Assembly (NCBI RefSeq): GCF_051622035.1
Contig: NC_135358.1
Coordinates: 1,676,501-1,740,500 of the forward strand
From: Arctopsyche grandis
Lineage: Eukaryota; Arthropoda; Insecta; Trichoptera; Hydropsychidae
Direction of reading: 5' to 3'
DNA length: 64,000 nt
Within the stretch, counting starts at the first letter, position 1. Each line of letters opens with the position of its first letter. The translations under genes and the position numbers were made by a program. Positions 32,901 to 62,890 of this stretch are shown one piece after another. The notes below the pieces were generated by a model, which saw only the letters and a program-made list of their open reading frames with translations, had not been told where the DNA came from and searched no databases.

Positions 32901-35900
32901 AAACTAGTCTTTATAAACATTGACACGAATCACACGACGCATTTTCGATGCATTTTTTTTTCAATGCACTTCTTGTTTATTTTTTACATACTCAAAATAG
33001 AACGCCTATCGGCGTATTTCAGACTCATGGCAAAACGCCGATCGGCGTTGGTCAGCATTATTTTGTTTATATTGTTGCAAGATATATGTACATATATTAG
33101 AGAGTTTAAACACGCCTTTACAAAGCTCGAAATCCTCAGCGGTAGTTATCTAGGGCTATGATCTAGAGTTTGTTTGGATTAGCTGCAATTTTTATACCTG
33201 TTTTCTATTGGACTTCTAAATAATTGTAGTTGGAAATGTTGGCGAAATTATCAGCGTGGCTGGCTTTCAAAAGAAAAGACGTCCACACTCAAAGGGTTTA
33301 CTTATCAGAATATGATAAGCGGAAGTGTTTCGCCCACGTTGGTTTATGTAAACCAGTCTTTATAAACATTGACACGAATCACACGACGCATTTTCGATGC
33401 ATTTTTTTTCAATGCAATTCTTGTTTATTATTTACATACTCAAATTAGAACGCCTATCGGCGTATTTCAGACTCATGGCAAAACGCCGATCGGCGTTGGT
33501 CAGCATTATTTTGTTTATATTGTTGCAAGATATATGTACATATATTAGAGAGTTTAAACACGCCTTTACAAAGCTCGAAATCCTCAGCGGTAGTTATCTA
33601 GGGCTACGATCTAGAGTTTGTTTGGATTAGCTGCAATTTTTATACCTGTTTTCTATTGGACTTCTAAATAATTGTAGTTGGAAATGTTGGCGAAATTATC
33701 AGCGTGGCTGGCTTTCAAAAGAAAAGACGTCCACACTCAAAGGGTTTACTTATCAGAATATGATAAGCGGAAGTGTTTCGCCCACGTTGGTTTATGTAAA
33801 CTAGTCTTTATAAACATTGACACGAATCACACGACGCATTTTCGATGCATTTTTTTTTCAATGCAATTCTTGTTTATTTTTTACATACTCAAAATAGAAC
33901 GCCTATCGGCGTATTTCAGACTCATGGCAAAACGCCGATCGGCGTTGGTCAGCATTATTTTGTTTATATTGTTGCAAGATATATGTACATATATTAGAGA
34001 GTTTAAACACGCCTTTACAAAGCTCGAAATCCTCAGCGGTAGTTATCTAGGGCTACGATCTAGAGTTTGTTTGGATTAGCTGCAATTTTTATACCTGTTT
34101 TCTATTGGACTTCTAAATAATTGTAGTTGGAAATGTTGGCGAAATTATCAGCGTGGCTGGCTTTCAAAAGAAAAGACGTCCACACTCAAAGGGTTTACTT
34201 ATCAGAATATGATAAGCGGAAGTGTTTCGCCCACGTTGGTTTATGTAAACTAGTCTTTATAAACATTGACACGAATCACACGACGCATTTTCGATGCATT
34301 TTTTTTCAATGCAATTCTTGTTTATTATTTACATACTCAAAATAGAACGCCTATCGGCGTATTTCAGACTCATGGCAAAACGCCGATCGGCGTTGGTCAG
34401 CATTATTTTGTTTATATTGTTGCAAGATATATGTACATATATTAGAGAGTTTAAACACGCCTTTACAAAGCTCGAAATCCTCAGCGGTAGTTATCTAGGG
34501 CTATTATCTAGAGTTTGTTTGGATTAGCTGCAATTTTTATACCTGTTTTCTATTGGTCGGCTTTCAACAGAAAAGACGTCTGCACTCAAAGGGTTGATGA
34601 ATGTATTTTTGCAAAACCAGTTCGATCTTCTTCATTGTTGTTAAAATGTAATGCTCACAATATAAACGCCAAGCCACAATCTAAAATACTCGGCAGTTAA
34701 AAATTTCCATCGGGTAATTCTGCTATGGTTTTAAATTCAGAAATTCCGATCTAAACGAATCTTTATAAACGTTGACAAATGAATTATACACGGTATACAC
34801 GATCCATGTTCAATGCATTTTTTGTTTAATGCTACCTGGAAAGGCTTAGCGGGTAGTATTCGTGTTTACTTTGTACATGCTCAAAATACGACGCGTATCG
34901 GCGTTTTTCAGGCCCATGGACTTGGTCAGCATTCAAAGGGTTAAGCGGAAAGTGTTGAACATTTCAAAACAACCGCAAGGCGGCGCGATAGGCGTTTCCG
35001 TTACGTGTCATGACACATTTCCTGTATGAGTTTGTTCCATAGAAGTTCAAAGCAACGTAAGGACATCATGGTAGATCTTACTCCAAGATGCTTTATAAGA
35101 TAAGATCATGTGTTGAATGACTGATCTTTTTACATGGTTTCGTTTGGAATAAGCCGGCTTAATTAACCTGTGCCTTCGAGCAGAGTGGTCACGGGTTCAA
35201 GTCCCACTAAAGTTCCGTTGCTGGCCAGACTTTGGCTTGTGACTCCAGGTCGATCGTTTCCTCACAGAATTTGCCAATTATTCTGATTATCATTAAAACA
35301 CTTCCTGTAAATTGGCAATTCCTTTCCAATCTATTGTTCAACTCCAACGTCTTGAGCTTCGCCAATTTCTATAATGAAATGCTGTTTGATTCGCATTGTA
35401 TAAAATGCTTGTATATTGTGTCCGTTTAAATGGACTCCTCGCTTTGGAGCGATCTGTAAAGACGAGTGTTCGTTTTCTTTGAAATAAAATAGCAGAATAG
35501 ACTAGTGGTTAGCATATAATGCTTCGAACAGAGTGGTCACGGGTTCAAATCCCACTGGTTTCTGCTGGCCAGACCTTGGATTTGATCGTTTCCTATCATA
35601 GTTTGCCGATTGATCTGATTTTCATTGAACAAATTGGCAACCTTACCTATTTTCTAGCAAAATCTCGAATTTTCAGCAATCTCGAATTTCGCTGAATTGT
35701 ATATTATGCTGCAAATTTACAAATTCGATCATAGATGTCTCCGTGGATATTAATTGATATGTATTTGTGTACTTTGCATATAATGTTTCTGGGCCAGGAA
35801 GGCGTATTAGGCTTTCCCGGTATAAATTAAAGATAAAAATAAAATATGCGGTCGGTTTAATCGACGTTGTGATTAATAAGGAGTGTGTGTGTGTGTGTGC

Positions 35901-38136
35901 TGTGTGATCTCCGAGACTACATATGTGCATAGGTCTGGCCATGTTTTGTATCGCGTGTTTGTGATTTCAGCCGTGGACTTCTTCAACCAGATCAACATGC
36001 TGTACGGCACTATCACGGAGTTCTGCACGGAGAAGAGTTGCACGATCATGTCGGCGGGGCCCAAGTACGAGTACCATTGGGCCGACGGGCACACGGTGAA
36101 GAAGCCGATCAAGTGCTCGGCGCCGAAGTACATCGACTATCTGATGACGTGGGTGCAGGATCAGCTGGACGACGAGACACTGTTCCCGTCCAAGATAGGC
36201 GTGCCGTTCCCCAAGAACTTCCTGTCCATCGCCAAGACGATACTGAAGCGTCTGTTCAGGGTGTACGCGCACATATATCATCAGCATTTCGAAGAGGTCG
36301 TTCAGTTGGGCGAGGAGGCCCACTTGAACACGTCCTTTAAACATTTTATATTTTTCGTTCAGGTATATTGAATTTTTACCAACCGACGTGTTTATGAAGA
36401 TTTGTGTCTTTGTTGGGTTTGACGAACGGCGTACTGTGAATTGATTTAAAAAAAAATTTAAGCCATTCCAATCGAAATTTTTGTGCTTGTTTTTAACCTT
36501 TCCACCGCGTACGACTACTATACATGTCCTAGCGAACATGCCCTCAGCGCGCGAGACACGCATTATATGTCTTGGAAGTTCCAACCTGTATAAGAGCCGT
36601 CTATTGTGTTAAAATTTTATAGCTTGGTTGAAAATATTACTAAATGTATACTTTACCAAATTCAATAGATGGCAGTAGTCAAAAAAATTAAAATATAGGT
36701 TGTAAAATTCAAAAAAAATTTACAACCTATATTTATAGTCGAAAACGCGATAACAAAATCCGCAAAAAAGCAGCCGCGTACAGGGCATGTTCGCTAAATT
36801 TGGCGACGCGGGCAAAGGGTTAAAGAGGAAATGAAGTTGACCGTTAATAATGCCCTCAACATTAGGTCCTCTTGAAAAATTTACTATAAATATTGTTGCG
36901 TAGGTGGTGGGTGGAAGATCCAAGTAAAAGGCCAAAGTCGTGTTACAGCATTTATTGGTGATTGAGGCGATACACGCACTGGCAGTGCTCTGTCCAGAAT
37001 GTCTTGATATGATCCTTATAAAGGGACAGGTCGCTCAAGGCATCTTCGACGTTCGGTTACTTCCCCATTGTTTAGGCATGTACCCGGATATGTATTCCCA
37101 TGACACTAAGTCCCACGCTATCGGTCACTTCTGAGAAGGGACCAATAGCGGCTAATTCGGTGGCCATTGTTTAGCCTACTTGCACTAATTCTGGAGATAA
37201 TCCTTGAAAACAATTATAACGGTCACACAGTCTCTGGGATGCTACTCGGCCTAATCCGATTGGACTAACTCGGCGGTGTACATAACACTATTAGGAATTA
37301 CATTGAGCAACCAAAAAAAATTACCGGAGATGAGACTAATCAATTTTTACCCAGTTTGAACTCGTTGATGAGTTATGAATGTTTGAAAAGATGCGCAAAT
37401 TTTGCATTCAACTCAAAAACTAGTATTGCTGTGCCAAAAGTCAGAAGAAATTTGGGTTCTTATCCGATCGTGTTCAAACTTTGCCATTTTTAAATGCTCC
37501 TAAACGAGAAAAAACCAATAAAAATCATTATCATATTCGAATTCAGTTGGTCAAACTTAGTAGAGATTGGTTAGTCTCCGCTCCGGTATGTAAATAATGG
37601 GATTTGTTTGTTGCTCAGTGTTATTAATTTAAAATGTTGTATTGGATAAATCTTAAACGCTTTTTTACAAACCTCCATTCACTTTTAATTCAGGAAAAGA
37701 TCTGCCTCTTATCCGATCGTTTTCATACTTTGTGCCATATGGCTCATTTTGGTCATCAATATAAGTAAATGGATCTTCCGCCATTACGATACAGATAAAA
37801 TATCGTTTAAGACGCGTTTCAAGTTTGCAAATTTTAAATCTGGGTGACGTCTACGTAGTCTTTAGTTTTATACATAGATGGCGGTAGTAAAATAAAATTA
37901 TTGGTATTTTTATTCAAAATAATAATTTATTAATTATGTATATTGAGTTCACATTGATTCACAGTTTGCCATTACGAAATTGATTGAAGATGCAAATTTT
38001 CGTTTATTTATTGTATTGCGTTTAATCTTAATGACATTCATCTTTCTCACTTTAGGAATTCAGTTTGATAGAACGTCGAGAATTGGCGCCATTGCAAGAA
38101 TTAATAGAAAAACTAACGGCCAAAGACGCACGATGA
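29976..38136 (+). CDS. mats: MOB kinase activator 1 (mats)
   Basis: MOB1 binds and activates Warts/LATS (NDR-family) kinases in the Hippo pathway, in the cytosol and at the cortex. Four coding exons, 29976-29989, 31275-31441, 35971-36362 and 38056-38136, join in phase to 217 codons, close to the 216 of human MOB1A. The first exon encodes only MSFL plus part of a Phe codon. The next gives GSRSNKTFKPKKNIPEGTHQ and ends at the AVN/T junction. The third carries the zinc-binding motif residues (Cys in TEFCTEKSC, His in AHIYHQHF) and KFIFFVQ-like HFIFFVQ. The last reads EFSLIERRELAPLQ and ends AKDAR. The frame is intact and very conserved. The second intron (4.5 kb) holds a satellite array and SINEs, and the third holds MITEs. 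It runs toward SF1 on the opposite strand. Confidence 0.96.
30635..30978 (+). mobile_element. 5'-truncated non-LTR retrotransposon (3' end)
   Basis: Coding remnants in one frame read PRGLRFLNSLDRAIDICH and LHRFLSYGSRDYLE, typical of the C-terminus of a Jockey/CR1-type reverse transcriptase polyprotein. CACTTTGGAGCAATCTGTTA follows, and then an AAATAAATAAA tail. It interrupts a segment whose uninterrupted copy is at 29599-29760. A shorter related tail lies at about 35435-35490. Confidence 0.65.
31644..34940. repeat. Satellite array derived from a TTAA-type MITE, in mats intron 2
   Basis: At least five head-to-tail units of 448-458 bases run from about 32270 to 34550; equivalent points lie at 32323, 32781, 33230, 33678 and 34127. 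Each unit carries the MITE terminus GACGTCCACACTCAAAGGG, the palindrome AACGCCGATCGGCGTT, the block GTTTAAACACGCCTTTACAA and TAGTTATCTAGGGCTA. The left flank (31644-31900) is in the opposite orientation, so the array sits inside an inverted structure. The outer ends match the P1 MITE at 12838-13351 (CCCTTTGAGTG... and ...CATTCAAAGGG before TTAA at 34941-34944). Small open frames repeat with the unit and are not genes. Confidence 0.85.
35145..35430 (+). mobile_element. SINE copy
   Basis: GTGGTCACGGGTTCAAGTCC, then TGTGACTCCAGGTCGATCG and the GAATTTGCCAATTATTCTG body form a copy with a partly degraded head. Confidence 0.65.
35495..35830 (+). mobile_element. SINE copy
   Basis: ACTAGTGGTTAGCATATAAT, GTGGTCACGGGTTCAAATCC, TTCTGCTGGCCAGACCTTGG and GTTTGCCGATTGATCTG form the family order. 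The copy ends near GGGCCAGGAAGGCGTATTAG. Confidence 0.7.
36497..36819. mobile_element. TTAA-target MITE, family P2, in mats intron 3
   Basis: TTAA flanks both sides (36493-36496 and 36820-36823). The ends are CCTTTCCACCGCGTACGAC and GACGCGGGCAAAGGG. A closely similar copy lies at 52875-53196 and a longer relative at 47880-48385. The centre has a perfect short inverted repeat (TATAGGTTGTAAA...TTTACAACCTATA). It is non-coding. Confidence 0.8.
36894..37265 (-). mobile_element. Diverged LTR-like copy related to 3713-4108
   Basis: TTGTTGCGTAGGTGGTGGG, AAAAGGCCAAAGTCGTGTTA and CAGCATTTATTGGTGATTGA match the solo LTR. The right end continues into GGTCACACAGTCTCTGGGAT, absent from the first copy but also present at 29335-29355. 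Target duplication not found. Confidence 0.5.
37266..38055. other. Rest of mats intron 3
   Basis: Segments near 37680-37890 (CTCTTATCCGATCGTTTTCA; AGTAAATGGATC) also occur near 10960-11045, and TGGCGGTAGTAAAATAAAAT also occurs near 11607, so this is a mosaic of dispersed repeats. No coding sequence is seen. Confidence 0.4.
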
Positions 38137-43700: not shown

Positions 43701-46700
43701 AAACCACATGTGGTAAGACAATTGAATTAAACACTAAAATTTTACTTTTTTTACTTAAAATATTTCTTAATCTACATAATACACCAACTTTTCTAGCCAT
43801 TTTTTTTATTATATAGTCAGCGTGCATTTTAAAATTTAGTCCTGAATCTATGTATACATCTAAGTATTTTATATTTTCAACTTTTTCAATTAACTTCTAA
43901 TCATCAATTCTAATTTCATTCAATATATTTTTATTTTTACCATTCAACCACATCATTTTTGTTTTATTCACATTCAACTTTAATTTATTTTCACACAACC
44001 AGTCATTCACATAATTTAATTCTATATTTAAAATCTCAGACATTACATCAACATTCTTTCCAATTATATATATCAATGTATCATCTGCAAACAAATGTAT
44101 TTTACACATCTTAATTACCTTAACAATATCATTTATATATAATATAAATAATAAGGGTCCCAATTTGGACCCTTGCGGCACTCCATGAGGTGTTACAAAT
44201 TCAGAGGATAACACCTTATCAATTTTTACTATTTGCCTTCTATTATTTAAGTATGATTGAAGCCACTTTAATACTATACCATTTATTCCTAACTTATATA
44301 ATTTTTGTAATAAAATATTCCTATTTACTGTCTCGAACGCTCGCTTAAAAACCAGAAAAACTGCTTCAACAACCATGCTAGATTCATCCATCGCCTCCAT
44401 CCAATCAGAAACCACCAATTGGATAGCGGTTTCTGTTGAATGTTTCACTCTAAATCCAGACTGTTCCACAACCAAACAATCATTTATACTAATGAAATCT
44501 TTCAATTGAATCATAACGATTTCCTCCAGCATCTTCTCAACAATTGGTAACATATTGATGGGCCTCATTTCACTGGCTTTATGTGTGCCAGTAACCTTTG
44601 ATACCGGTACAATAGAAGACACCTTCCATGCATCCGGGACGGATCCCACTTCTAACGATTAATTTATTAATTTCAGTAACTGAGGTCCAACCATGTCCCA
44701 AGTGTTGATTAAAATATCTAGAGTCAATCCATCCATACTAGAAACAGATTTCATGCCCTTCAATACACCATTTAATCCCCCCATTTCCACCAATTTAAAC
44801 CTATCAAACTTATTTAAAAACAAATTAATATCATCATTCACACTATTATGCCTTGTTTATATTGAATTAACTATATCATTCACACTATTGATGTAAAACT
44901 CATTCAATCTTTCAACCATATCCTCTTTATCATTATATACTACCCCCTCGACTTCTAATTCATTCAAAGAAAGATTTTTTCCCCCGGAAATCAAAGTTTT
45001 AATTATTCGCCACATTTTTGTGGGATCTTTTTTTGCACCATCTATATTTCTTTCATGCCAATCCCTCTTCGCATTACGCAAAACATTCACACATTTATTC
45101 CTCTTTCTTTTATACTCTAACCAAGCTTTTTCTAATTGGATTCCATCCATAGCCTTAATAATTTTATATCTTTTATAACTAACATTCTTATCAACTAAGC
45201 TTTCCTTTACTTCCTTGGTAAACCAAGGTTTCAGCTTATGCTTATGCATGATTCTTGTGGTTTTTACGCATTTACTTTTAGAATATGTTATATTACGATA
45301 CATTATCTCCCACATTTCATTCACACTATCAGCATCCTTTCCCCATACACACTCCTTTAACAATTCATTCATCAATTGATAATCAATGTTTTCTCTTTCA
45401 GTCACCTGCATACTTTTAAGTCCTCCGTTACTAAACCGCTGTCCCAAAAACATGTTGACAATAGAATGGCCTCCTATTTTCGGTATATCTTTCACCTCAC
45501 ACCGCAAATCCATTATATTTGTTATAACCAAATCAATGAGAGAGCTTGATAAATTATTCACTCTCGTTGCTTCCGTCACTTTTTGTTTAAAACCCAATTT
45601 CTCAACTTTTTTACATAAAATTCTTCTGTCTGTAACCAATTAAAATTCCAGTCCCCAAACATAATTATATTTTTACTCACATCTATACTACTTTCACTCA
45701 ATTCTTCTAAAAATTTAAGAAATCTTCCACTTCTACCATTCGGAGAGCGGTAAATTACTAGCAAAAACACAGTAACTCCATTCACAAGCACATCCACACC
45801 AATTGTCCAAAACTCACCATCAACCTTATTAACTATTACATTACCGTAACTTAAATCATCCCTTAAATACAATAGTACCCCACCCGTATGTCTAGAATTA
45901 GAGTCACACCTCAAAACACAATATCCATCTATATTCAGCTCAAAATCTTCAAAATCACTAGTAACATGCGTTTCACTTAAGCCTATAAATAATGGTTTTT
46001 GACTTACAGTTAAACTCCAAACCTCATCCTTGTGAGCAAAAAAACTTTGTACATTTATACCGATACCTTTTGGTGGTTGCTATATATTATTATACTTAAT
46101 TCTATTTCTCATTAATTCTATATTTCTTTTATATACACTGCACTTAGTGTCGAACGGTCCGTGATTCGTGTTCAAATTTAATTTTAATTTATTATTACAC
46201 TTAAAGCAATTAATACATTTTATTATTTTATTGTTACATCCCTCGTTTTTGTGCCCTTCTTCTCCACATTTCGCACATGTCACCTTGTTTATACAATCCA
46301 CCGCTTTGTGATTAAATCCGTAACAATTTAGACATCTTAGAACATTAACTTCTTCAAAAACCCTACATCTATCCCAATTTATATTTACTTTTCCATTTTC
46401 AATTAATCTTTTGAATGTATTGCAATCTACTTCCACTATCGCATTATATTTATTATTTTTGCTTCTTTTCCATATTTTTAACACCTTCAATTCACCATCA
46501 TTTATAACTTCTTGATTTTGATTCATCAAACACTCAGCCAACTGTTCACTTGTAAGTTCCTCCGAAATATCTACAATTTTAATTTTGGGATTTTTTAATT
46601 CCCCTCTTTTAACATTGTAACTCTCCCCTAATTTATTTTTTACTTCTTTTATTAATTTAATACTATCCTGTGCACTGTTACACGTTACAACGATACCCCC

Positions 46701-49700
46701 TTTACCGATTTTTTTAACCGCTTGTATTCCTATTTTTAGTTCCTTGGGTTTTATTACATTTTTGCACTCTTCTTTTGTTTTGTCCGTTTCTTGAATTTTT
46801 TTTGGAACAATTATTGTTACGTCTTTATTATTATTTTTAAGTGCATTTGCATAACTTAAATTATTTTCATTCTTATTTACACCCCTTTTTAAAATGTTTA
46901 ATTCACTGTTGCTTTTTAATATATTTATGTCTTTTTGTGTATTGTTTTTCAAATTTTTAAATTCACTTCTTGATTCACATATTACATCCAAAAATTGTTC
47001 CTTATCATTATTTTCACTTTCACAAATATATTCAACTAATTTTTTAACTGATTCAATTAAAAATGTCTTATTTTCATTTGATATACTGTTAGTTTTTGTG
47101 GTCAAAATGTCCATAATTTTTTTTTCAATCGTTATTACTTCACTTATGCGTTCTGATGCCATTATTTTACACTTAGAACAAACACATAATTATATATTAC
47201 AAATTTATTTTTATTTTTTTAATTGTTACAATTTCGTTGCCCAAATCGCCACACACGTAATCAACGTCTGTACACGAACACGATAAGAACACGACTGTGT
47301 TCTTATCGTGTTATTTGTTATTTGTATACCTTTTCAACAGCTTTTTTGACGCATTCGGGATTGGTGGCTGTGATGTAAGCGTGAAGGTGTTCATCTTCTC
47401 CGGGCAACGGCTGTCCATCTTTGCGTCCGACTTTGCCCTCCTTCACGGAACCTTTCCCTCGTATAATAATCTTGGCACCGGTCTCTTTCTCCATAGCTGT
47501 GAAGTACACACGAAATTTAAACACACGAATATAAAATTTACGCTGTCAACAAACGAAGTATTGGGTGCTACTTTAGTATGCGGTCTACCTTCACGTTTTT
47601 ACTTTAATATGCGGTCTCACTGTCTCAGTTCTCGCGTGTGACACTGATACTGAATAATACCGACCGTACCAACCTAACCTTAAATGATTAGGGCCCACCT
47701 TAACTTAACCTAAACTATCTTGACCCATAAACAAATTATTGAAGGCTGCTAGATATGATTTTTTTTAAGTTTTATTTCATCAATATTTTCACAAGAAAAA
47801 ACATATCTTAGCAGCCAACAACTATTTATTTAAGGTTCAGGATAGGTTAGGTTATGTTAAGGTTGGCCCTATTCATTTACCCGTTTGTCCGCGGCCGTCT
47901 TCTATGGAAGCTTTGCGCGACAAGTCTGTAGCGCGGGCTGTCTTCCATAGAATTTCTGAACTTTGCATGGGATTTTGAGCCTTATATGCGCCTATTTCAA
48001 CTGTTTTATGGTTCAAAATTGGTTGAATATATTACTGAGAGTTGAATGCCATCTATTCAATTTGCTTAAAATGAATATATACCAGTCAAAATTAGTTTTT
48101 TGTGGAACCATACTGAAACCTCGTTTATGTGACGTCACGTCTGTTAAACAATGGCGACGATACATCTCAATTGTATGAAGAATGATTATTTCACAATTAA
48201 GCCAAAACTACGAGATACATTATGTACTTTATTGTTTAAAATAATACTTTGTGTTAATTAACATATCTGGTTACTTGAGTAAATATTAAAATCTGTATTT
48301 AAAGTCGAAAACTCGATTCCCAAATTCGCGAAAAAGGTGCCGCGTACAGGGCTCGTTCGCTATATTTATTGCCACGGGTAAAGGGTTAAATAAATAGTTG
48401 TTGGCTGATAAGAAATGTTTTCTAAAAGTTTTATTTCATCTATTTTTTCACAAAAAAAAACATATCTTAGCAGCCAACAATTATTTATTTAAGGGTCAGG
48501 TTAGGTTAGGTTAAGTTAAGGTTGGCCCTATTCATTTAACACGTTCAACCCGACATGTACCACCGGTGGCCACGCGGATAGTCCTATAGCAGACTATAAT
48601 TTTACGGTTCCACTTCATTGAGCACCCCAACACTAAAATTCCTATAAAATTCTAAAGATTTAGGCACAACTCATTATATAAAGTGATTTAATGCCGTCAC
48701 GCGTAATTGGGTGCCGATACGCGTGACAATGCCGCCACATGGGCAAATGTATGAAATCATGCGCCGGGCTGAATGTATTAAGAGATATGCATCTGCCGAC
48801 GATATATTGATAGAAATGCTTCGACAACATTATGGGGCGGCAGGAAAGAACAAAAATTGTAATAAACATTTCGTTGCTACGATACAAATAAAAAAAAAAA
48901 ATAGTCGACTGCGATTCAAAGGCAGACTAAAGTAGCATCCAAGTATATTGAACGCTTACATTTGAGTGTGTTGCCGCGAGGTCCGATCAAAAGACCGACG
49001 AAGTTAATATCGGGATGCTCCTCCTGCGGAATCATCACCCTGTCGTTCACCCTGATTATCGGAGGCCTGAAACATTCCACGGACGAAGTGAGTAATGAAA
49101 TGATGCAACGGCAAACTCATACGTGTGACGACTCGGTACTTGTAATCGTTGGGCGGTTTGAAGTCGGGATTGATCGCGAGCATCTGCTGCACGAGGGCGT
49201 GTCGTTTTTCTTCCAGCTTACGTCGCGTACGATATTCCCTCATATTCAACCTCTTGCCGTCAGACGAATAGATAGGTTCCGGCGACGGCGATCTGTTGGA
49301 TAGAAAACAAGCGTAAATCAAATTCGAAATTCGACCGTGTCAATAATGATAGTATTTTGAATTCGTTAATGTGCGGGAATATTGATTTTTTTTTTTTTTA
49401 CTTAATAATCTTTTCTTCCTACTGTAAATTATCAATAAATTAAGTGGGGGGGGGGGGGCGGGGACTTTAAGCCGACACGTGGAGTAAAAAAATATAAATA
49501 AAACATGTGTGTGTGCGATTGAGCCGGTTCAATACTTGGAGATCTACCACCTAAAGTTTCCTGCAGGTTCCCTCTATCCTAAGGAAATTAATTAAACGGA
49601 TTAAATAATATATAATGAGAACCTTTATATATATATTATGTGGAGAAAAATAATCAATTAAAAATTTGTATAATATTATTAGCATTATTATAAAATATAA

Positions 49701-52700
49701 AAAAAAAATTATTAGCTGCAAAATTAAACCAGATTACTTTTGCATATATATATATTAAATAATCATATTATAAAATTTATTTGTTTTTATTAAAAAAAAA
49801 AAAAAACATTGAAGCTAATCCTCTTTTGAATAAATGAAATTTAATCATATAAATTATTATCCTTTTTTTTTACAGTAAAAAAAATATATATAAGAGGTCA
49901 GCGAGTTGTATATTTCAATTACTGGGTATACTTTTCGCCGTTGACACGGCAATTTAATGGCGTCGGCGAAAACCTGACTGCGTCGGATAGTCGGAAAAGA
50001 AACGCTGACAAAGCTCGGAACTTTCCTCGTATGTGTGTGTGACGAAAACCCTAAATATTTTATATATATATATATATATATATTATAATATCTACATATC
50101 GTCGACTTAAAAATATATTTGAATGATTATATTTTGCAATAGATTATCTGTCATTATAAGGGTGGATGGGTGGGTGTGGTGTTGCGGTGAAGCAGCGCGG
50201 GGACCACCGCCGCTGTCACCGCCGTCTACAATCGTATCCAGACCTTTCTTCGACGTTTGCCGGTATTCCCAAATCTCCGGATCTCAACTTGCGGCTAACC
50301 TCTTCGATCTGCAGTTGCACTGAAACCAAAACGGGTTAGGCAAGGGCCAAAAAACCCACAATTAGACATGATATCCTTTTGAATCTTATCCATTCAAATA
50401 TTTAATCGAAACATTCTACTTACAATACATATATATATATATAATAATAAATATATATAAAAACAAAACAATTAATACGCCGATTGAAAAAATAACGTCC
50501 CATTAATAATAATGCTTATATGATTTGATTTTTTAAATACAATGAAACTAATGATTCAATATCTGACTGCAGTGAGAAAATATTGAAATAAAAATTAGGC
50601 GATCTCTAATACCAGGCCCAATCCTACATAAAATCATACGTTAAATCAGATTCAAACCATCAACTGATATTTATGAATATAATAATTCAAATAATTCAAC
50701 AAAATAAGCATATACGTAAAAACATATATGCTTATTTTGGTGCCACTTTAGTATGCGTAGCAACGACCTGTTTATTTTAATTTTTGTTTTTTATACGGCC
50801 AACCCTAACTTAATCTAACCTAACCTGACCCTGTTGTTGGCTGTTAAGTTTTATATCATCAATATTTTTACAAAAAAAAAACATATCTTAGCAGCCAACA
50901 CCTATTAGGTTAGGTTAGGTTAAGTTAGGGTTGGCCCTATTCATTTAAGATTAGGTTTTTGATTAGGATGTCACACGCGAGAACTGAAACCACATATTTA
51001 AGTAAAAATGTGGAGGTAGATCGCATACTAAAGTAGATACGTGAAGGTAGATCGCATACGAAAGTGGCACCCTTATTTTTTACTTTATCTACAAAGCATT
51101 ATTGATTGTGAAAAGTTCTAAATTTTGACTGGTATCGATCTTTGTTTTACGTTTTATTATTTGCATTGCATTTTTATATTCGATTTACTTGTACTTTCAG
51201 TGACTGTGGGATCTACAATGCTTTCTTAAATGAAATTGAGCAGTGTGTCTGCCATTTATACACTCACTGGTACAGAAACGGCCATTATTTAGTTAAAAAC
51301 AGTGTCATGATCAGGGCCAGCTCAAAGGTGCAGCAGACTAGGCAAGTGCCTAGGGCGCCATGAACAAGGGGCGCTGCGATGCGCCCCCATTTTTCTTTTT
51401 TTGATTATAAAATTGAAAAAATATATATTCTCCACTCAAAGTAACAAAACTGATTTGAAAATATTATAATTTACGAGGAACGCAGGAAGTTGACTGTTGA
51501 CATAAAATAGCAAACTGTCGTCGGTACAAATGGTAATTTGGAATTGTATTTTATATAAAATACCGCTGAAACATATGTATGTATATATACATACACATCA
51601 GGGATGGATTTGCTTTACGAAATTAAATATCTTAACAAATCATATTCGAAAGAAGAAATGTCACTATAAAATTCTTCAATTCACAGTTGAATATAAATTA
51701 ATGTCTTCATTACCGAATTTATTCATAGTTATCTGTATTTTATTTTGTTTTATTCATTTTTATACATAAAACGTGTTTATTTAGAATAAAAGATTTTAAT
51801 TTTGTCTTAATATATTTAACTGCCAAGAAATTTATTGTTTAAACATTTAAGGGAGGTGGGGGGGGGGCGCTATATACCCTCGGGCCACTCCTGGTCATAG
51901 TTTAACATTTTGGATCAATATACATATAAACTGAGGTTTCAAGTAGTTAGTTAATCAAAATATATATAGAAAATAAACTATTATATATATTTTATGACAC
52001 TTTCTGTTCATATTTTGCACCAAACTTTGGTAAATTTAGCTGAAAGTTTTGAATCTGATCTAGAATACGTTTTTTATGCGGATGGTTTTAGCAGTGGGCA
52101 TTTTACATCACTATTTCTACGGCTTGTGTGATCATTATTGTGAAATGAAAAATAATAAAATGTACAGTCAACTATACCTGAAATAAAAAGTATATATGTA
52201 AAACATTTACTGCAAAAATGGATTAGAAAATTTTCATTAAAAACAGACACAAATTATCGACAAATGACAAAAATAAAATTACATCTTTCATTATATTAAT
52301 AAAAACAAGTATATTCGATTAACGCCTGAAAATAAAATATAAATGAAGTAACTATGTATTATAAAATGTAGCCTGTAAGTAATTAATTATATATAATTAT
52401 AATATTCACGAGTGGTGTAGTATAAAGCGAAAAAAAATCTAAATACACTGTGAACAGAATAATGTAATAAAATCGTGATTAAGCATTTTTTCAGGCGCCC
52501 TGTTGGAGGAGACAAAGGAAAAACGAGCGATGAGGATTAAAAATAAATAAATTTACAATGCATCAATGGAAACAATAAATAATATAAAAAAGAAAAGTAA
52601 GCGTATACAAAATGCGAACTCATATCAAGACACTTACAAAGATACTGTTCCTCTTGTTGTTTAGTCAACGTCGGCGGTAAGATCGTCGGCATACCGGGAA

Positions 52701-54903
52701 TGAATGTTTTATCATGTTCGGAGCCGGCCCAACGGGAACGTTTACGTCGCGTCTTTTTATCTTCAGCCGACTCTCGGTTTCCTGGAAAACAAATAAACCG
52801 TAAAAACTGTACAGCGTGGCGTGGATTATTGCTAATCGCCGTAGAGACACGTATTTTGGGCACTTTGCTATTAACCTTTCCACCGCGTACGACTACTATA
52901 CATGTCCTAGCGAACATGCCCTCAGCGCGCGAGACACGCATTAGATGTCTTGGAAGTTCCAACCTGTATAAGAGCCGTCTATTGTGTTCAAATTTTATAA
53001 CTTGGTTGAAAATATTACTAAATGTATACTTTACCAAATTCAATAGATGGCAGTAGTCAAAAAAAATAAATATAGGTTGTAAAATTCAAAAAAATATTAC
53101 AACCTATATTTATAGTCGAAAACGCGATAGCAAAATCCGCAAAAAAGCAGCCGCGTACAGGGCATGTTCGCTAAATTTGGTGACGCGGGCAAAGGGTTAA
53201 TGCTAAAATTCGGAATAGATGTTAATAGATGCTAAAATAACAAACAAAAATGAAATTTGTATAAAATTAATAGACAATTTAGAAGGGTCTTCCTATCCCT
53301 TTGCCCATTTATTATGTGAAGAAATTGAGGGGATAAAACAGAGCTTGCAGTTTACCATAGACGGTGTTTTTTCTGTCGAAACCAAGCAACTGCTTTTGTC
53401 TACTACTGTAAACAAAATAAGACAGTTGGAGCTGTGTATCCAAAAGGCTGCTCAAATAAGACAAGACTAAATGAGACAAATCTATTCCTCCGAACATTGA
53501 GTAAACTATTCAATCCATCTGTGGCAGGTTCAAAATCTAATATTAATGTTAAAGAAACAGTTTTGTTTTTTAGAAACCTGCCATTGTTTAATGTAATGTA
53601 ACAGAGGCTCAATGATTGGAAGGATATCAGCACTTTTTTAGACAATTAATAGAGAATATAAGAAGTGAATCCACGCCGGATATATTGCTATTATTGATGG
53701 CAACAAAAATTAAATATGAAGAGTTTGGTTGTGCCGCTCTAACATCTATTTGGTGTCCCGTCAATAGTGTGGATGCTGAAAGGTATTTTAGTAAATACAA
53801 TATAATTTTTACCGGTCGTCGCACGAATCTCAAAAAATAATCTGTAGAAATAAGCTCCATGTTCAGTTTTAATCAATTTTAATTGGTATAATATTTTTAT
53901 ATTCATATTTTTTGTCTTTGTATTTTTATATTCATGTTTTTTTCATTGTAATTTTAACTTCAAAACATTTTAGAATTTTTCTATTATTTTTTAATGTTTG
54001 TGTTGTCTTTAAATTGTATATATGTATATACATTTTGTTAAAATTCATCGAAATTTTTTATTATTTAAAATTAATATCTTCATAAAAATAGATGCTAAAT
54101 TGAACATTTTTATCGCCCTAAAACGCAAATATGCAAAATTGACAAAAATAGATGCCCAAAATACGGGTCTCTACTAATCGGCGATGCATACCCGGAGAGC
54201 CGGAATCGTCAGGTGTCGGATTCATATAAGACATCTGGTCCTGCATGGCGTTCAGATTTTGCAAGCTGTGAATCGTCGTGTTAGCTGAAGCAGCGGCTAG
54301 TATAGCTGCCTGTGTCAATCTGTCAACGAGAGCTCCATTGCCGCTGGTGCGGGACATGGTGGAAGTAGTCGTCCCGACCATCTGATCTAATAAGGCGATG
54401 GTACCATCCCTGCAAAAAGTATATGTATATACGACAGGAAAAATATATAATTCTACATAATATGTTATTTAAAATAGTAAACGTTATTACTGCTGCTGGT
54501 TAAATATTACAATAATATAGAAGAAAAGTGGAATTTTTTTTGGTTAAAAAATGAAAAAAGTATCAAACCTATCTTTGGATTTGTTCCGTCCCCTGCTTCG
54601 ACTGCGACTGCGACTTCGGCTTCGACTTCTGTGGTCTTTCGACTTCCTCTCACGATCCTTGCTCTTCCTATCCTTGTCCCTACTTCTGTGACGGCTCCTA
54701 TCCCTAAAATGACATTTGACAGTGTGAAAACGCACAAGTGAGGTTAGAATTTGAGCGAAAGTGGTGTACCTCTTGGAGCGATGCCTCTCTCGGTCTCGGT
54801 CCCGATCCCGATCCCGGTCCCGATCTCGGTCCCTGTCGCGGTCTCGGTGACGATCCCGGTCCCGATCTCGATCCCGACTCTTGTCCCGACGTCGAGAACT
54901 CAT
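40797..54903 (-). CDS. SF1: Splicing factor 1 / branch point binding protein
   Basis: SF1 recognises the intron branch point and binds U2AF65 in early spliceosomes (nucleus). Exons in transcript order: 54903-54770, 54703-54569, 54409-54192, 52781-52638, 50319-50244, 49292-49140, 49066-48960, 47496-47330, 42000-41839, 41766-41035 and 40964-40797. All phases agree, giving 731 residues. The N-terminal ~90 residues are an RD/RS repeat. The U2AF ligand motif RKRSRWAG is near residue 175, followed by [11 protein letters not shown]. The KH domain spans about 290-380 ([30 protein letters not shown]). Two zinc knuckles follow the QUA2 segment [15 protein letters not shown] ([14 protein letters not shown] and [14 protein letters not shown]). 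A proline/glycine-rich tail ends PPPPPPPS. The start is the first Met before the RD repeats. Introns carry a non-LTR element, hAT elements and MITEs. PERK-like lies head to head upstream. Confidence 0.95.
42030..42345 (-). repeat. Joined fragments of dispersed repeat families A and B in SF1 intron
   Basis: TTGATTTTAACGGGTGG and TTGATACACGAATTAAAAAT (family A) run straight into ATTCGGATGTGACCAACCCA and TGTATTTGAGGAATATAAGG (family B right end, inverted), then back into family A (CATACATCGAGTCTGTTTTT). This suggests A and B belong to one larger element. Confidence 0.55.
42346..43140. other. SF1 intron, repeat fragments
   Basis: It holds an LTR-like patch at 42350-42620 (TATATATAATTTCGAAAG; minus-strand AATAAACAACATG), the CCGGGTAAAACAACTAG repeat end at 42790-42812, and a SINE body fragment at 43025-43110 (ACAAATTGGCAAACTCTG). 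No gene is recognised. Confidence 0.4.
43275..46078 (-). pseudogene. ORF2 (endonuclease-reverse transcriptase), frameshifted and mutated
   Basis: The endonuclease part reads [38 protein letters not shown] and, after a frameshift near 45620, SLIDLVITN and GGHSIV. The reverse transcriptase (44649-43897) has [26 protein letters not shown] and [10 protein letters not shown]. The block normally reading D..KAFDTV is [11 protein letters not shown], so the first catalytic aspartate is replaced. A stop separates [14 protein letters not shown] from [13 protein letters not shown], and further breaks lie near 43897 and 43606. The C-terminal piece ends [16 protein letters not shown]. It cannot make an active enzyme. 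Confidence 0.85.
46080..47162 (-). CDS. ORF1 (gag-like, RNA-binding) protein of the non-LTR retrotransposon
   Basis: A 360-codon uninterrupted frame. The N-terminal half is lysine/asparagine-rich and probably coiled (repeated [12 protein letters not shown]-like and [15 protein letters not shown] segments). The middle has an RRM-like segment ([20 protein letters not shown]). The C-terminus holds three cysteine/histidine clusters: [28 protein letters not shown], and a third beginning CINCFKCNN. Such proteins coat the element RNA. It starts [15 protein letters not shown] and overlaps or abuts ORF2. AT-driven codon use (many Asn, Lys, Ile) differs from the host genes. Confidence 0.85.
   Translation of the reverse strand: MASERISEVITIEKKIMDILTTKTNSISNENKTFLIESVKKLVEYICESENNDKEQFLDVICESRSEFKNLKNNTQKDINILKSNSELNILKRGVNKNENNLSYANALKNNNKDVTIIVPKKIQETDKTKEECKNVIKPKELKIGIQAVKKIGKGGIVVTCNSAQDSIKLIKEVKNKLGESYNVKRGELKNPKIKIVDISEELTSEQLAECLMNQNQEVINDGELKVLKIWKRSKNNKYNAIVEVDCNTFKRLIENGKVNINWDRCRVFEEVNVLRCLNCYGFNHKAVDCINKVTCAKCGEEGHKNEGCNNKIIKCINCFKCNNKLKLNLNTNHGPFDTKCSVYKRNIELMRNRIKYNNI
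47671..47879. repeat. Fold-back element with TTAGG-like internal runs
   Basis: TAAATGATTAGGGCCCACC and AAGGCTGCTAGATATGATTT on the left are mirrored by AACATATCTTAGCAGCC and AAGGTTGGCCCTATTCATTT on the right. The AGGTTAGGTTA-type runs are part of the arm. Related copies are at 48392-48540 (half) and 50800-50955. Confidence 0.65.
47880..48385. mobile_element. TTAA-target MITE, family P2, longer relative
   Basis: It starts CCCGTTTGTCCGCGGCCG after TTTA and ends GCCACGGGTAAAGGG before TTAA (48386-48389). It shares GTGCCGCGTACAGGGCTCGT and the CGAAAACTCGATTC region with 36497-36819. Non-coding. Confidence 0.65.
48386..48959. other. SF1 intron: half fold-back element and unassigned DNA
   Basis: 48392-48540 is a half copy of the fold-back element above. 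48541-48959 has a short frame (48711-48935) without recognisable family. It ends in the donor side of the KH exon. Confidence 0.4.
49330..50243. other. SF1 intron, low-complexity DNA
   Basis: It contains a run of about 12 G at 49447-49460, poly-A/T tracts, and a (TA)n run at about 50060-50083. No gene or recognisable transposon is seen. Confidence 0.45.
50739..51071. mobile_element. MITE with GGTGCCACTTT ends enclosing a fold-back copy
   Basis: GGTGCCACTTTAGTATGCG is mirrored by CGCATACGAAAGTGGCACC. Inside lie a fold-back element copy (TTGTTGGCTGTTAAG...CTTAGCAGCCAACACC) and TTAGGTTAGGTTAAG runs. The same terminus occurs near 47568-47620. Confidence 0.65.
51312..51893. mobile_element. hAT-type non-autonomous element in SF1 intron
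   Basis: It starts CAGGGCCAGCTCAAAGG and ends CCTCGGGCCACTCCTG, so the ends are inverted CAGG-type repeats. The flanks GTCATGAT (51304-51311) and GTCATAGT (51894-51901) are a slightly decayed 8-base duplication. Poly-G patches and AGGGCGCCA/GGGGGGCGC motifs recall the element at 59001. Confidence 0.65.
51902..52637. other. SF1 intron, AT-rich, no feature recognised
   Basis: No repeat or coding structure could be named. Confidence 0.4.
52875..53196. mobile_element. TTAA-target MITE family P2, nested in the hAT element
   Basis: Perfect TTAA on both sides (52871-52874, 53197-53200), ends CCTTTCCACCGCGTACGAC and GACGCGGGCAAAGGG. Very similar to 36497-36819, so movement was recent. Confidence 0.8.
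53616..53840 (+). pseudogene. hAT transposase C-terminal remnant
   Basis: The frame includes [17 protein letters not shown] and [17 protein letters not shown], then GRRTNL. This matches the hAT dimerisation block around S.DAER.FS. The upstream transposase is broken into short frames (for example 53219-53470), so no full protein is made. Confidence 0.75.
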
Positions 54904-57139: not shown

Positions 57140-60100
57140 ATGTCGATCGGTAAACAAGCGTATGAAATCCTCACGAGGGAATTGAAGCTTCTTCGTTATC
57201 AAAAAAAGCCAAAGTTTCCAATCTTACACCGAATGCTACACGATTTTTCCATAGATAAAAAACAGACACAAAAAGTATACAGTTCTCTACAGATTTTACT
57301 AATAAAAATATGGAAAGAATATGACGATGACAACAAGGATTTTTCGGATGTAAAATTGAGTATCGTGAATTTTCTTCTATCTGATAGAATATCCAACTTA
57401 ATTTTGAACTCCATCAAAGTTACTCTCGGTGATGAATTAACAGATACTAGTTTGAAAGAAGTGGAGAATTGTATCTTGCAAGACTTTAAGAATTTCTTAA
57501 TCCGTAGCTTATCAAGAATAATTGCCCAACTAACCATTTTGCAACTAAGCAAGTATCAACTGGATGAGTAAGTTTTATGAAAAAAATTAGCTCACAAATT
57601 TTGTATCGCAACATATGTACTAACAAGTGAAGCTTATAAAATGATACCTACACATTTTTACATACTTAAATGCGAAATATTTTTATTTTAGTTTAATTAT
57701 TGTGAGTACGGTGAATGGGAGACTGTGTGCTATAGATCTATTCTTGGGAATAATCGTCTGGAGCTTTAAAGCGGGACTACCATTGGTCCAGTCGAATAAG
57801 ACTTCACAGGTATTTACTTTGTGGTTTAATTTCGTAATATATGTACTTGTGAAGATGAGTTGTTTATATATTTTATACTATTTTTTAACTAAAGTCTATA
57901 GAATATAATGGAAAAATTGTCCGTATAATACCCACCTCGGGCGGAGGGCTGTACAAACTGGTAAACAAATCAATACCAGTGCAAATGCAAGTTTCAATGG
58001 AACAATTGATTTCTATGTGCCCTTGCATCGGTGATGTAATTTTTACTGGTACGAACATCACTTTTTTATGTATAGCGATTTTCTTTATATTTGATAGAAC
58101 TTCGTGTACTACATATTATATTATATTTCAGGTAACAAAATTACTTTTGCCAAAAATCTTTCATTGCCTATGGGGTTTGTTAATCACAAGAGTTCACAAA
58201 AAGTCTTGGAAAATTTGGATAAAAATGAAGATTGTGTGCCGAGAACTCCCTTGATCTTAAAATCTACAATACAAATACTGCACGCCAACCATCAACATAA
58301 TTTGAAAACAAAGTTGTTATTGCTTATTTCAGTGAAATTATCAATGCAAATAAAAAATTGTTAAAAGAAGTGTTCTTTAGATGGAGTATGAACGTTACGG
58401 AATATGACATTCATCTTAAAAAAGATGCACGTCCTGAAATCCAAAACGATTCAGATGTCACTTCCTCAGCGATCAGTTCCATCGTAGTGGATCCACCCAA
58501 AGGTGTAATAACTCGAAAGATTGGTGCTAATTACAGTCGTTACAACTTCTTTTGGAAGATAGAAGTAAGTTTTCACACAATTTCTCGATCATATATGTAT
58601 ATATTCAACACAGTAAGTTGTATAAATTTTAATTTACAGCTTAGATCTTCAATTGCAAATGTGTGGATTCTAGAAAATGAACGACTACAAAAATTGGATT
58701 TATTTAGTTCACCTCATGTGATGCCTAATGATAGCGGAATTCTGCCAAGTTTTTTCTACACATGTATGGAAGATGTAAAAAAGTTTTCATATAATATTAT
58801 ATACTATACAAATATATATGTATACTAATCTATATTTTATTAAAGAATGCATATATTCAAGAATCTCCACGGATCAAAGTTCAAAAATCTAATCAAATGA
58901 ATTTTGATAAAATACTCAATATAGATGATGACTTAATGCAAAATTTAGGTCGGAAATTCTCAAATGGTATTTTAATTTTTACTTCTATATCTATTATATA
59001 CAGTGCCGGTTTTAGGGGGGGGGCTGGGTCAGGCGGGGCCTGAGGGCGCCAAATAAGTTAGGGCGCCGCACGATGCACCAAAGGCGCTATAAAATTTAAA
59101 ATTAGAGCTCCAAAAGACATTCAAAATTTTAGATTAGAGCGCCAAAGCCGAAAGTTTTTTCTAAGGGTGTTTAGAAAAAATTGCCCGGGGGCGCCATCGG
59201 GTGTAAGGCCGGCACTGATTATATACGTGTATGTATTCTAGAATATATACATACGTATATATAAATAATTTTTTATTCGATGATTAGGTCATAAATATTC
59301 GGATATTGGATTTTATGCGTATTTCAATGAAAGTTCATCTGCTATTGAAGAAAAATTTGAAAATCTTACCGTCAAAGAGTTCAATGACGACGTATATAAT
59401 AGCGAATTTGTTAAAAAATTCGAATACAACAAGAAGTTGGGAGAAGGAGGATTTGGATTTGTTTTTGAAGCTCGTCACAAACATGACAATTGTACTTATG
59501 CTATTAAAAGGATTGAAATGAAGTAATTATGTATTTTCATTTTTGTATATAATGAGTTTATTTACATTCAGAATAGTTTTAATTTATTTTCTGCTGTCAC
59601 TAAGAAAATTTTTTGAGCTTGATTGGTCTATTGTTTTTATATTTTTCATATACTACATACATACATTTAAATATAATTTTCTTTTAGGCCCTTTTAAACA
59701 AGCTATTTATCTAAGGTTTTATTTTGAAAAATTTTCAGAAAAGATGAAATGGATCAAATAGTGCGTGAAGTTCAAGCACAAGCAAATTTAGATCACAATA
59801 ATCTTGTACGTTATCATCATTCTTGGTTAGAAGAACCGCCACTCGATTGGGACGATCCTCTAAAATCGTAACTATTTTAGATTACTTTTAATTTCTTATA
59901 ATTTATAATTTTTTACTATTGTATTTTTTATCATAGGGAGATGGAAAATGATGAATCTTCTTTAGAGTTGTTACAACCTGGAAGTTATCTTACAAGGTAT
60001 GAGTCAAGTATTTGTAGCAAGGCTTATTTTTATATCCAAATGCAATTGTGCAAATCGGGGAATCTAAGAGATTGGTTGAATAATTCTAAAATGCTAGAAA

Positions 60101-60902
60101 TACGCAAAGAAAAGGTATACATTAAATTTTCCCATATTATGCATTTAAAAAAAAATTCATTAATTATATCATTTTGTCACATTTCATATACGCCCAGACT
60201 GTTTCTTATTTTAAACAAATTGTAAGTGGAGTGGAATATATGCATGAACAGGGTTTCATTCATCGAGATTTAAAACCTGAAAATATATTTTTTTTCTCTG
60301 ATGATTATATTAAAATTGGTGATTTTGGATTAACAACCAATTATATCGTTGATTCATTAAATAATGGTGATATAAACGTAAAACTGCCAAATAAATTGGA
60401 ACATACGTTAGACGTTGGTTAGTAAGAGTTGTACATACATGTATTTTATTTTCAAATTTGTGTATAATTATTATAGTTTGGTGACTATTCAACTAGGTAC
60501 TGGATTTTATAAAGCCCCAGAGCAAAAGGTCACAAAGACTTATAACCATAAGGTGGATATTTGGGCTCTTGGGATTATTTTGGTAGAATTTTTATCTATT
60601 TTCAAAACTGGAGTTGAAAGGATTAAAGTCTTGGAAAAACTGCATGTCGGAACTTTCACACAAACATTAATCGATGCTTTCCCCAATGAGGTGCGCTTAT
60701 AGATAATAAATCTTTTTTGTTTTATAAAATATAATTATGTACATAATTATACATTTCTTCTGATTTTTAGTACAAATTGCTCCGTTTAATGTTATCGCAC
60801 GATCCTACAAAACGGCCCACCACTTTTGGTATTAGAGCACATTCACCAATTAATGATAAGAATGTTAAAGAACGTTTTTATTTTAAAATGCCTTCTATAT
60901 GA
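57140..60902 (+). CDS. PERK-like eIF2-alpha kinase without visible signal peptide or membrane anchor
   Basis: PERK phosphorylates eIF2-alpha on ER stress. Thirteen exons join in phase to 802 residues: 57140-57567, 57692-57809, 57895-58048, 58132-58312, 58381-58564, 58640-58774, 58846-58966, 59288-59522, 59739-59867, 59937-60114, 60198-60417, 60497-60690 and 60771-60902. Exon 1 (about residues 1-143) is an unrecognised helical-looking segment. Residues about 143-455 follow the PERK luminal propeller ([42 protein letters not shown]). The kinase (about 485-790) has [24 protein letters not shown], the PERK-type [25 protein letters not shown] and APEQ. Only about 30 mostly polar residues link propeller and kinase, where PERK has its transmembrane helix and juxtamembrane segment. 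The intra-kinase insert is short. Human PERK is about 1,115 residues. An alternative in-frame Met at 57104 adds 12 residues. It could be a cytosolic paralogue, or the true start may lie on an unseen exon. Confidence 0.85.
59001..59217. mobile_element. hAT MITE with perfect 8-base duplication in PERK-like intron 7
   Basis: CAGTGCCGGTTTTAGG and the inverted AAGGCCGGCACTG are flanked by ATTATATA at 58993-59000 and 59218-59225. It is 217 bases long with GGGCGCC motifs and is non-coding. Confidence 0.85.
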
Positions 60903-62277: not shown

Positions 62278-62524
62278 GTTAAATACCGATTATTCTAATT
62301 TGAAATAGGCCAATATATGGAAAAATCAGTGTGGCGATCACTGTTTATTTGTCATTATTTTCAATATGGCTACACTTTTTATATGGCAAACATGAAAATT
62401 TGTAGGTTATTTCACATCTGCCAAATTGAATTGATGCTATATTGAACTGGTAATATCAAAATAATTCGTATTTTGAACTTATATAAGATTTTCACTATAT
62501 CAAAACCTATTTTTGCAGGAAAAT

Positions 62525-62890
62525 ATGTTTCACACATTCAGAAGACTTCTTACAAACATACCTAAGGTTGTAAACAATTGTACACCTCAATTAGACATAA
62601 GTGTTCAGACTTCAAGATGTTTCGGAATGTTTTCGGCCATTCGACCCTTTGATTCGTGCACTGTTTCATTTTTAAAACCAAACCTTCCGTTGTTGATATC
62701 AAGCTGTGGTCTCAAGTACAAAGGCAAGCCGAAGCTCAGATGCAAAGATTGCTACAAAGTCTTAATAGACGGCAGATTACATATTAAGTGCCTGACTTTT
62801 GGTCGCCACAAACAAGTACAGCTATGGAAAAAACCTAAAAACACTTGGGAATTAGCACATGCCACCCAAGGCAAATATAGAGATTGGTAG
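62525..62890 (+). CDS. mRpL36: Mitochondrial ribosomal protein L36 (bL36m)
   Basis: A small protein of the mitochondrial large ribosomal subunit, imported into the matrix; the bacterial L36 domain binds zinc near the peptidyl-transferase region. 121 codons from MFHTFRRLLTNIPK. The N-terminal part is basic and amphipathic, as in a mitochondrial presequence. The C-terminal 45 residues hold the L36 domain: GLKYKGKPKLRCKDC, then VLIDGRLHIKC and RHKQVQL, with the CxxC, Cys and His zinc ligands. A TTTTTGCAG acceptor lies 6 bases before the ATG (62510-62518), so an upstream non-coding exon is likely. An in-frame Met four codons upstream falls in that acceptor tract and is not favoured. Confidence 0.93.
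   Translation: MFHTFRRLLTNIPKVVNNCTPQLDISVQTSRCFGMFSAIRPFDSCTVSFLKPNLPLLISSCGLKYKGKPKLRCKDCYKVLIDGRLHIKCLTFGRHKQVQLWKKPKNTWELAHATQGKYRDW

Follow-up and report, generated by a model that had tools for sequence, protein, structure and literature searches.

PERK is a type I ER membrane protein, and a PERK-like kinase gene that encodes neither a signal peptide nor a membrane helix raises the question of whether it is intact, how it arose and what kind of protein it would specify. Such a gene lies on the forward strand at positions 57140-60902 of the window analyzed here, a stretch of 64,000 nucleotides (C4:1676501-1740500) from Arctopsyche grandis. The assembly searched comprises 475.7 Mb in 189 contigs.

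Gene Model and Domain Identity

Rebuilding of the exon model gave 13 exons, all with GT-AG junctions, whose 2409 nt encode 802 residues (Table 1), so that the exon number, length and unbroken frame proposed in a sequence-only reading of this DNA were reproduced exactly. Omission of intron 4 yields a 12-exon version whose frame is broken. An intron at the same place and in the same phase, just before KWS/KWN, is present in a second soluble copy (copy 2, 79 nt) and in the canonical PERK of this genome; intron 4 was therefore accepted, and a frameshift at this point was ruled out. Alternative introns of 17-20 nt at the same position were discarded as too short, since the minimum intron length exceeds this range.

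Table 1. Features of the soluble PERK-type kinase gene, in window positions.
Feature	Position	Strand	Description
Exon 1	57140..57567	+	Start codon and 142-aa N-terminal domain in place of the PERK signal-peptide exon; all-helical prediction of low confidence
Exon 2	57692..57809	+	PERK luminal-type domain begins
Exon 3	57895..58048	+	Luminal-type domain
Exon 4	58132..58312	+	Luminal-type domain
Intron 4	58313..58380	+	68 nt; the open frame depends on it
Exon 5	58381..58564	+	Luminal-type domain
Exon 6	58640..58774	+	Luminal-type domain
Exon 7	58846..58966	+	Luminal-type domain
hAT-type MITE in intron 7	59001..59217	.	217 bp; terminal repeat CAGTGCCGG; 8-bp target duplication ATTATATA
Exon 8 (fused)	59288..59522	+	Luminal end directly into kinase N-lobe; PERK membrane exon 9 absent
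E480-x-x-x-K484	59404..59418	+	Charge-reversed, at the site of the R-x-x-x-D/E dimer salt-bridge pair
Exon 9	59739..59867	+	Kinase N-lobe
Exon 10	59937..60114	+	Kinase; long PERK kinase insert reduced to a short linker
Exon 11	60198..60417	+	Catalytic-loop region and activation loop (HTLDVGT)
Exon 12	60497..60690	+	APE and alpha-G helix
Exon 13	60771..60902	+	Kinase end, tail FGIRAHSP (common to own-genome PERK), stop codon

Searched against the PDB with phmmer, the luminal part of the window gene matched the PERK luminal domains 5v1d (2e-6) and 4yzs (7.8e-6), and all four chains listed up to E 10 were PERK. Its identity with the PERK of the same genome is 26% over 291 aa (E 5.9e-21). The kinase matched PERK best in the PDB (3qd2, 6e-66), ahead of GCN2 (4.5e-49), and shares 48% identity with own-genome PERK over 322 aligned residues. 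Only kinase models were significant for the window gene in Pfam; a weak beta-propeller match (E 0.031) fell below the cut-off, and no dsRNA-binding or Z-alpha domain of the PKR/PKZ kind was significant in this search. Comparison with own-genome PERK and PDB PERK shows that both soluble copies retain the catalytic K, HRD and DFG, the activation loop as HTxxVGT with its Thr, and the alpha-G docking motif. The region earlier read as a PERK propeller is indeed PERK luminal in kind but not a classic propeller, as the PERK luminal domain is described as a beta-sandwich in which dimer and tetramer subdomains are distinguished; it forms dimers and transient tetramers (PMC4474532), and would thus be a ready-made module for dimerization.

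The sequence-only reading had mentioned neither the 142-aa N-terminal domain that replaces the first PERK exon nor, as described below, the existence of another soluble copy and the reversal of charges at the dimer interface. In this genome, exon 1 was found by tblastn only in the two soluble genes: the whole-genome search at E <=1 returned itself, C4:477624-478037 (54%, 4.4e-36) and two further matches at E 0.66 and 0.89. It matched no Pfam family, and a PDB profile search with both exon-1 copies gave two matches, the better at E 2. The AF2 model from the single sequence is all-helical at low confidence (pLDDT 64, pTM 0.55), and none of the 509 Foldseek matches to this model reached E 0.001 (best E 0.2, TM 0.25). 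A reading of exon 1 as an HRI N-terminal domain gained no support, for against the N-terminus of the own-genome HRI copy 2 gave no alignment and the window gene only E 4.1. A viral origin likewise gained no support in one scan of viral contigs, in which none of 231 pattern matches was a relative.

Absence of the ER-Targeting Parts

The canonical PERK of the same genome served as positive control for hydropathy. Over the 110 residues that precede the glycine loop, the maximum of the 19-residue mean is 0.28 in the window gene and 0.87 in copy 2 versus 1.80 in PERK; in residues 1-40, the maximum of the 12-residue mean is 0.37 and 1.39 versus 2.65, respectively. Neither a signal peptide nor a pre-kinase membrane helix was found by hydropathy in either soluble gene, which bears out the earlier claim on both elements. 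One segment of the window gene, residues 154-172, reaches a mean of 1.83, as high as the PERK membrane helix, yet it contains D and K and aligns with luminal strands of PERK. N-glycosylation sequons in the luminal-type part number nine in the window gene, two in copy 2 and five in PERK.

Intron 7 measures only 68 nt in copy 2, and of its 321 nt in the window gene 217 bp are a MITE, with the 8-bp target duplication besides. Since this intron is short or MITE-filled, and exon 8 runs from the luminal end into the kinase without a break, there is no room for a hidden membrane exon. This hAT-type MITE is absent from copy 2.

At the 5' end, a splice-acceptor-like CTGCAG|AG directly precedes the ATG of the window gene, and the 7.1 kb upstream contain four signal-peptide-like reading frames by chance criteria, which leaves a small probability for an upstream exon. 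In copy 2 the frame is closed eight codons before the ATG, without an earlier ATG. Both copies have the ATG context GAGATGTCGATCG, which fits a start. What the sequence encodes is, as had been proposed, a soluble PERK-type luminal-domain kinase whose ER-targeting parts are absent by hydropathy. A response to lipids, which in PERK without its luminal domain is reported to depend on the membrane anchor (PMC4376399), would therefore be closed to such a protein.

A Second Soluble Copy under Purifying Selection

Copy 2 (C4:478037-474560, reverse strand) also has 13 exons and 802 aa, with identical phases and no stop, and is soluble by hydropathy. All exon length differences from the window gene are multiples of three, and protein identity is 65% across 787 aligned codons. 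On C4, a distance of 1.26 Mb separates the two genes, which have opposite orientations. A genome-wide tblastn with the luminal-plus-kinase part gave at least 83 matches at E <=0.01; among those listed, which covered the best candidates, luminal-part matches were limited to the window gene and C4:474-478 kb, the diverged luminal exons of canonical PERK not appearing in this list.

Between the two copies, dN/dS (Nei-Gojobori, 95% bootstrap intervals) was estimated domain by domain: 0.33 (0.18-0.53) in the N-terminal one, 0.31 (0.22-0.44) in the luminal one and 0.18 (0.13-0.26) in the kinase, the most constrained of the three; with dS as high as 0.7-0.95, these omega values are approximate. In none of 1000 bootstrap replicates did dN/dS reach 1 in any of the three domains. 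Under drift over the distance between the copies, a mean of 39 stops, and a minimum of 23, would be expected in one copy (300 simulations). Both soluble copies are constrained, as dN/dS is 0.18-0.33 across the three domains, and all three, including the new N-terminal one, are kept by purifying selection. Disabling mutations, together with the absence of an expressed transcript, had been named beforehand as evidence that would speak against the gene; of such mutations, the window gene carries none, and the second soluble copy is under constraint.

Outside the coding exons, no similarity was found between the flanks of the copies, either upstream or downstream, with simple repeats masked. A search for a shared upstream coding exon in the 7.1 and 10 kb before the genes, with masking off, returned nothing beyond simple-repeat matches and one weak alignment over the final 400 bases. 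Intron identities of 0.68-0.91 were not accepted as conservation, because homologous pairs scored a mean of 0.04 per base against 0.10 in 101 non-homologous pairs; without intron 7, the homologous score is 0.16 per base.

Origin from PERK

The search for a second, canonical PERK gene suggested by the sequence-only reading located one at C7:17519781-17524003, with 15 exons and 1008 aa; its signal peptide is MRLLAVLLLVLSFHPYLHA, and its membrane helix is encoded by exon 9. HRI is found on C7 at 17.010 Mb (best PDB match HRI, 3.5e-38) and GCN2 on C4 at about 24.326 Mb (best PDB match GCN2, 9.6e-73). HRI and canonical PERK thus lie about 0.5 Mb apart on C7 (17.01 and 17.52 Mb).

All 12 introns of the soluble genes correspond in order and phase to PERK introns 1-7 and 10-14, which excludes an origin by retrocopying. 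Introns 8 and 9 of PERK, on either side of the membrane exon, are absent from the soluble genes, whose exon 8 resembles PERK exon 8 at its start and PERK exon 10 at its end. The membrane part was lost in frame, most simply through a single deletion. The phase at the end of exon 1, just before L(I/V)(I/F)VST, is that of the PERK signal-peptide exon, which was therefore replaced as one unit; in what order and by what means this exchange and the membrane-exon loss took place, we infer.

Two intact soluble genes thus arose through PERK duplication. The tail FG(I/V)RAHxP is common to them and to own-genome PERK, and human PERK differs there, so a duplication after the vertebrate-arthropod split is favored on this thinly sampled sequence comparison.

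Charge Reversal at the Dimer Interface

At the site of the dimer salt bridge, the own-genome kinases follow the pattern R-x-x-x-D/E (PERK SRYLTDF, HRI SRYFSDF, GCN2 SRIKNEF), and the PDB alignment gives RFGMDF for PKR. The window gene has SEFVKKF, with E480 and K484, and copy 2 has SEFFNTF, that is, only half of the reversal (E, then T). The Asp-Tyr-Tyr hydrogen-bond triad of the dimer was located by its distance from the catalytic lysine, with PKR numbering as the guide; it reads D507, Y511 and Y544 in the window gene, and Asp is replaced by Ala in copy 2.

The reversal of the charges suggests that the protein could pair with itself. A PKR study describes a single salt-bridge mutation as impairing activity and the reciprocal double mutation as restoring it, and the charge-reversed pair of the window gene resembles this reciprocal mutant; the same source gives the pair as absent from 11 of 31 PKR/PKZ sequences (PMC2291453). 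In another report, PKR R262D raised rather than lowered the dimer signal (PMC5345052). The reversed pair makes it testable whether a swap of dimer charges is a means by which eIF2-alpha kinases become insulated after duplication.

Genomic Surroundings

Just 3' of the kinase gene, a ribosomal protein L36 frame lies at 62477-62887 (+; Pfam 2.5e-8). Elsewhere in the window, a 449-bp tandem repeat of 5.7 copies (97% matches) occupies 31993-34556, and a retroelement reverse transcriptase frame is found at 43900-44658 (-; RVT_1, 1.1e-29), adjoined by long frames without Pfam match at 44860-47189. A Mob1/phocein exon (35880-36368, +; 2.4e-63) is overlapped by a frame at 35970-36608 (-), which shares a long near-identical stretch with the frame at 52540-53085 (-); these two frames are possibly a duplicated piece. 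Nine contig ends of 2 kb were read: TTAGG/CCTAA arrays make up five of them, another two have the TTAGG unit among mixed repeats, and the remaining two consist of N. Telomeres of TTAGG type indicate an arthropod, probably an insect.

Proposed Function and Alternative Explanations

We consider it probable that this PERK-derived gene pair under selection specifies a soluble cytosolic eIF2-alpha kinase, dimerized via a re-used luminal domain. In the two intact genes that arose by PERK duplication and are under purifying selection, the new 142-aa exon has taken the place of the signal-peptide exon, and the membrane exon is missing along with its two flanking introns, which leaves the luminal end fused in frame to the kinase. 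Activity, substrate, location, dimerization and stimulus of the soluble kinases we infer as follows. The product would dimerize through the PERK luminal beta-domain and the kinase lobes, autophosphorylate its activation loop and then phosphorylate eIF2-alpha at Ser51. A signal may be received by the N-terminal domain, by the luminal-type domain or by both. The reversed dimer charges would favor self-pairing and disfavor pairing with canonical PERK, HRI or GCN2. Having lost the parts that place PERK in the ER membrane and gained a new front domain, the two proteins probably serve as an unanchored switch by which protein synthesis is slowed.

That the substrate of an active soluble kinase is no longer eIF2-alpha seems unlikely to us: the loss of the long insert and an identity to own PERK of only 48% over 322 residues would suit such a change, but the alpha-G region and activation loop stay near those of eIF2-alpha kinases and differ little or not at all between the two copies. 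The retained dimer modules, both PERK luminal-type and kinase, might instead belong to a regulator that damps canonical PERK or another eIF2-alpha kinase by pairing and is not a kinase in its own right. We regard this as improbable, given that no catalytic residue has been lost and that constraint is strongest in the kinase domain; in addition, the charge reversal disfavors pairing with R-x-x-x-D/E kinases, and a luminal-type domain in the cytosol cannot meet that of PERK inside the ER.

Entry into the ER through an undetected upstream signal-peptide exon, giving a luminal or secreted kinase, would agree with the splice-acceptor-like site before the ATG and with the nine sequons of the window copy. 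It is nevertheless very improbable: the 7.1 and 10 kb upstream of the two copies match in simple repeats only, the frame of copy 2 is closed eight codons 5' of an ATG that no other precedes, the shared start context fits initiation, and a luminal kinase could not reach eIF2-alpha. Although loss of both ER-targeting parts would be a first sign of a broken PERK copy, a decaying pseudogene is scarcely credible here. The two copies, separated by 1.26 Mb, oppositely oriented and set in unalignable flanks, are both open with matching splice sites, and dN/dS well below 1 in all three domains contradicts decay, barring a very recent relaxation of selection on the window copy.

For the soluble cytosolic eIF2-alpha kinase that we prefer, the presumed need for a different way of sensing stress, raised in the sequence-only reading, follows from the architecture. 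A more tentative idea, which we regard with considerable doubt, is that an ER stress sensor has moved as a whole to the cytosol, where its luminal domain would sense, or be oligomerized by, cytosolic cargo, the lineage-specific N-terminal domain would provide a second input and the charge swap would insulate the proteins from PERK, HRI and GCN2; the lineage would then have five eIF2-alpha kinases, the fourth and fifth of which would answer to separate stimuli. The soluble kinases would extend the set of eIF2-alpha kinases in an arthropod where PERK, HRI and GCN2 are already present. A soluble kinase with a PERK luminal domain separates what this domain senses from where it sits.

Comparison with Known eIF2-alpha Kinases

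No soluble PERK paralogue of arthropods was found in the titles and abstract openings of the open-access literature, a weak negative. Canonical PERK shares with the soluble genes the luminal-type domain, the kinase, the tail FG(I/V)RAHxP and 12 introns that agree in order and phase; it differs in having a signal peptide, a membrane exon, a long kinase insert and the R-x-x-x-D pair, and lacks the 142-aa exon 1. HRI and GCN2 are soluble eIF2-alpha kinases, and their own-genome representatives have related kinase domains. However, the PERK luminal-type domain is seen in neither, and the N-terminal region of HRI has no match to exon 1. A likeness by description exists with PK3 (eIF2K3) of Trypanosoma brucei, a putative paralogue of PERK whose described action lies outside the ER once it has relocated to the nucleus (PMC9684732), but this protein starts at the ER and moves under stress. 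PKZ and PKR of vertebrates have other sensors and no descent from PERK, whereas they resemble the present pair as eIF2-alpha kinases of one stock with exchanged sensor domains, the dsRNA-binding domains of PKR being replaced in PKZ by Z-DNA-binding domains (PMC7137213).
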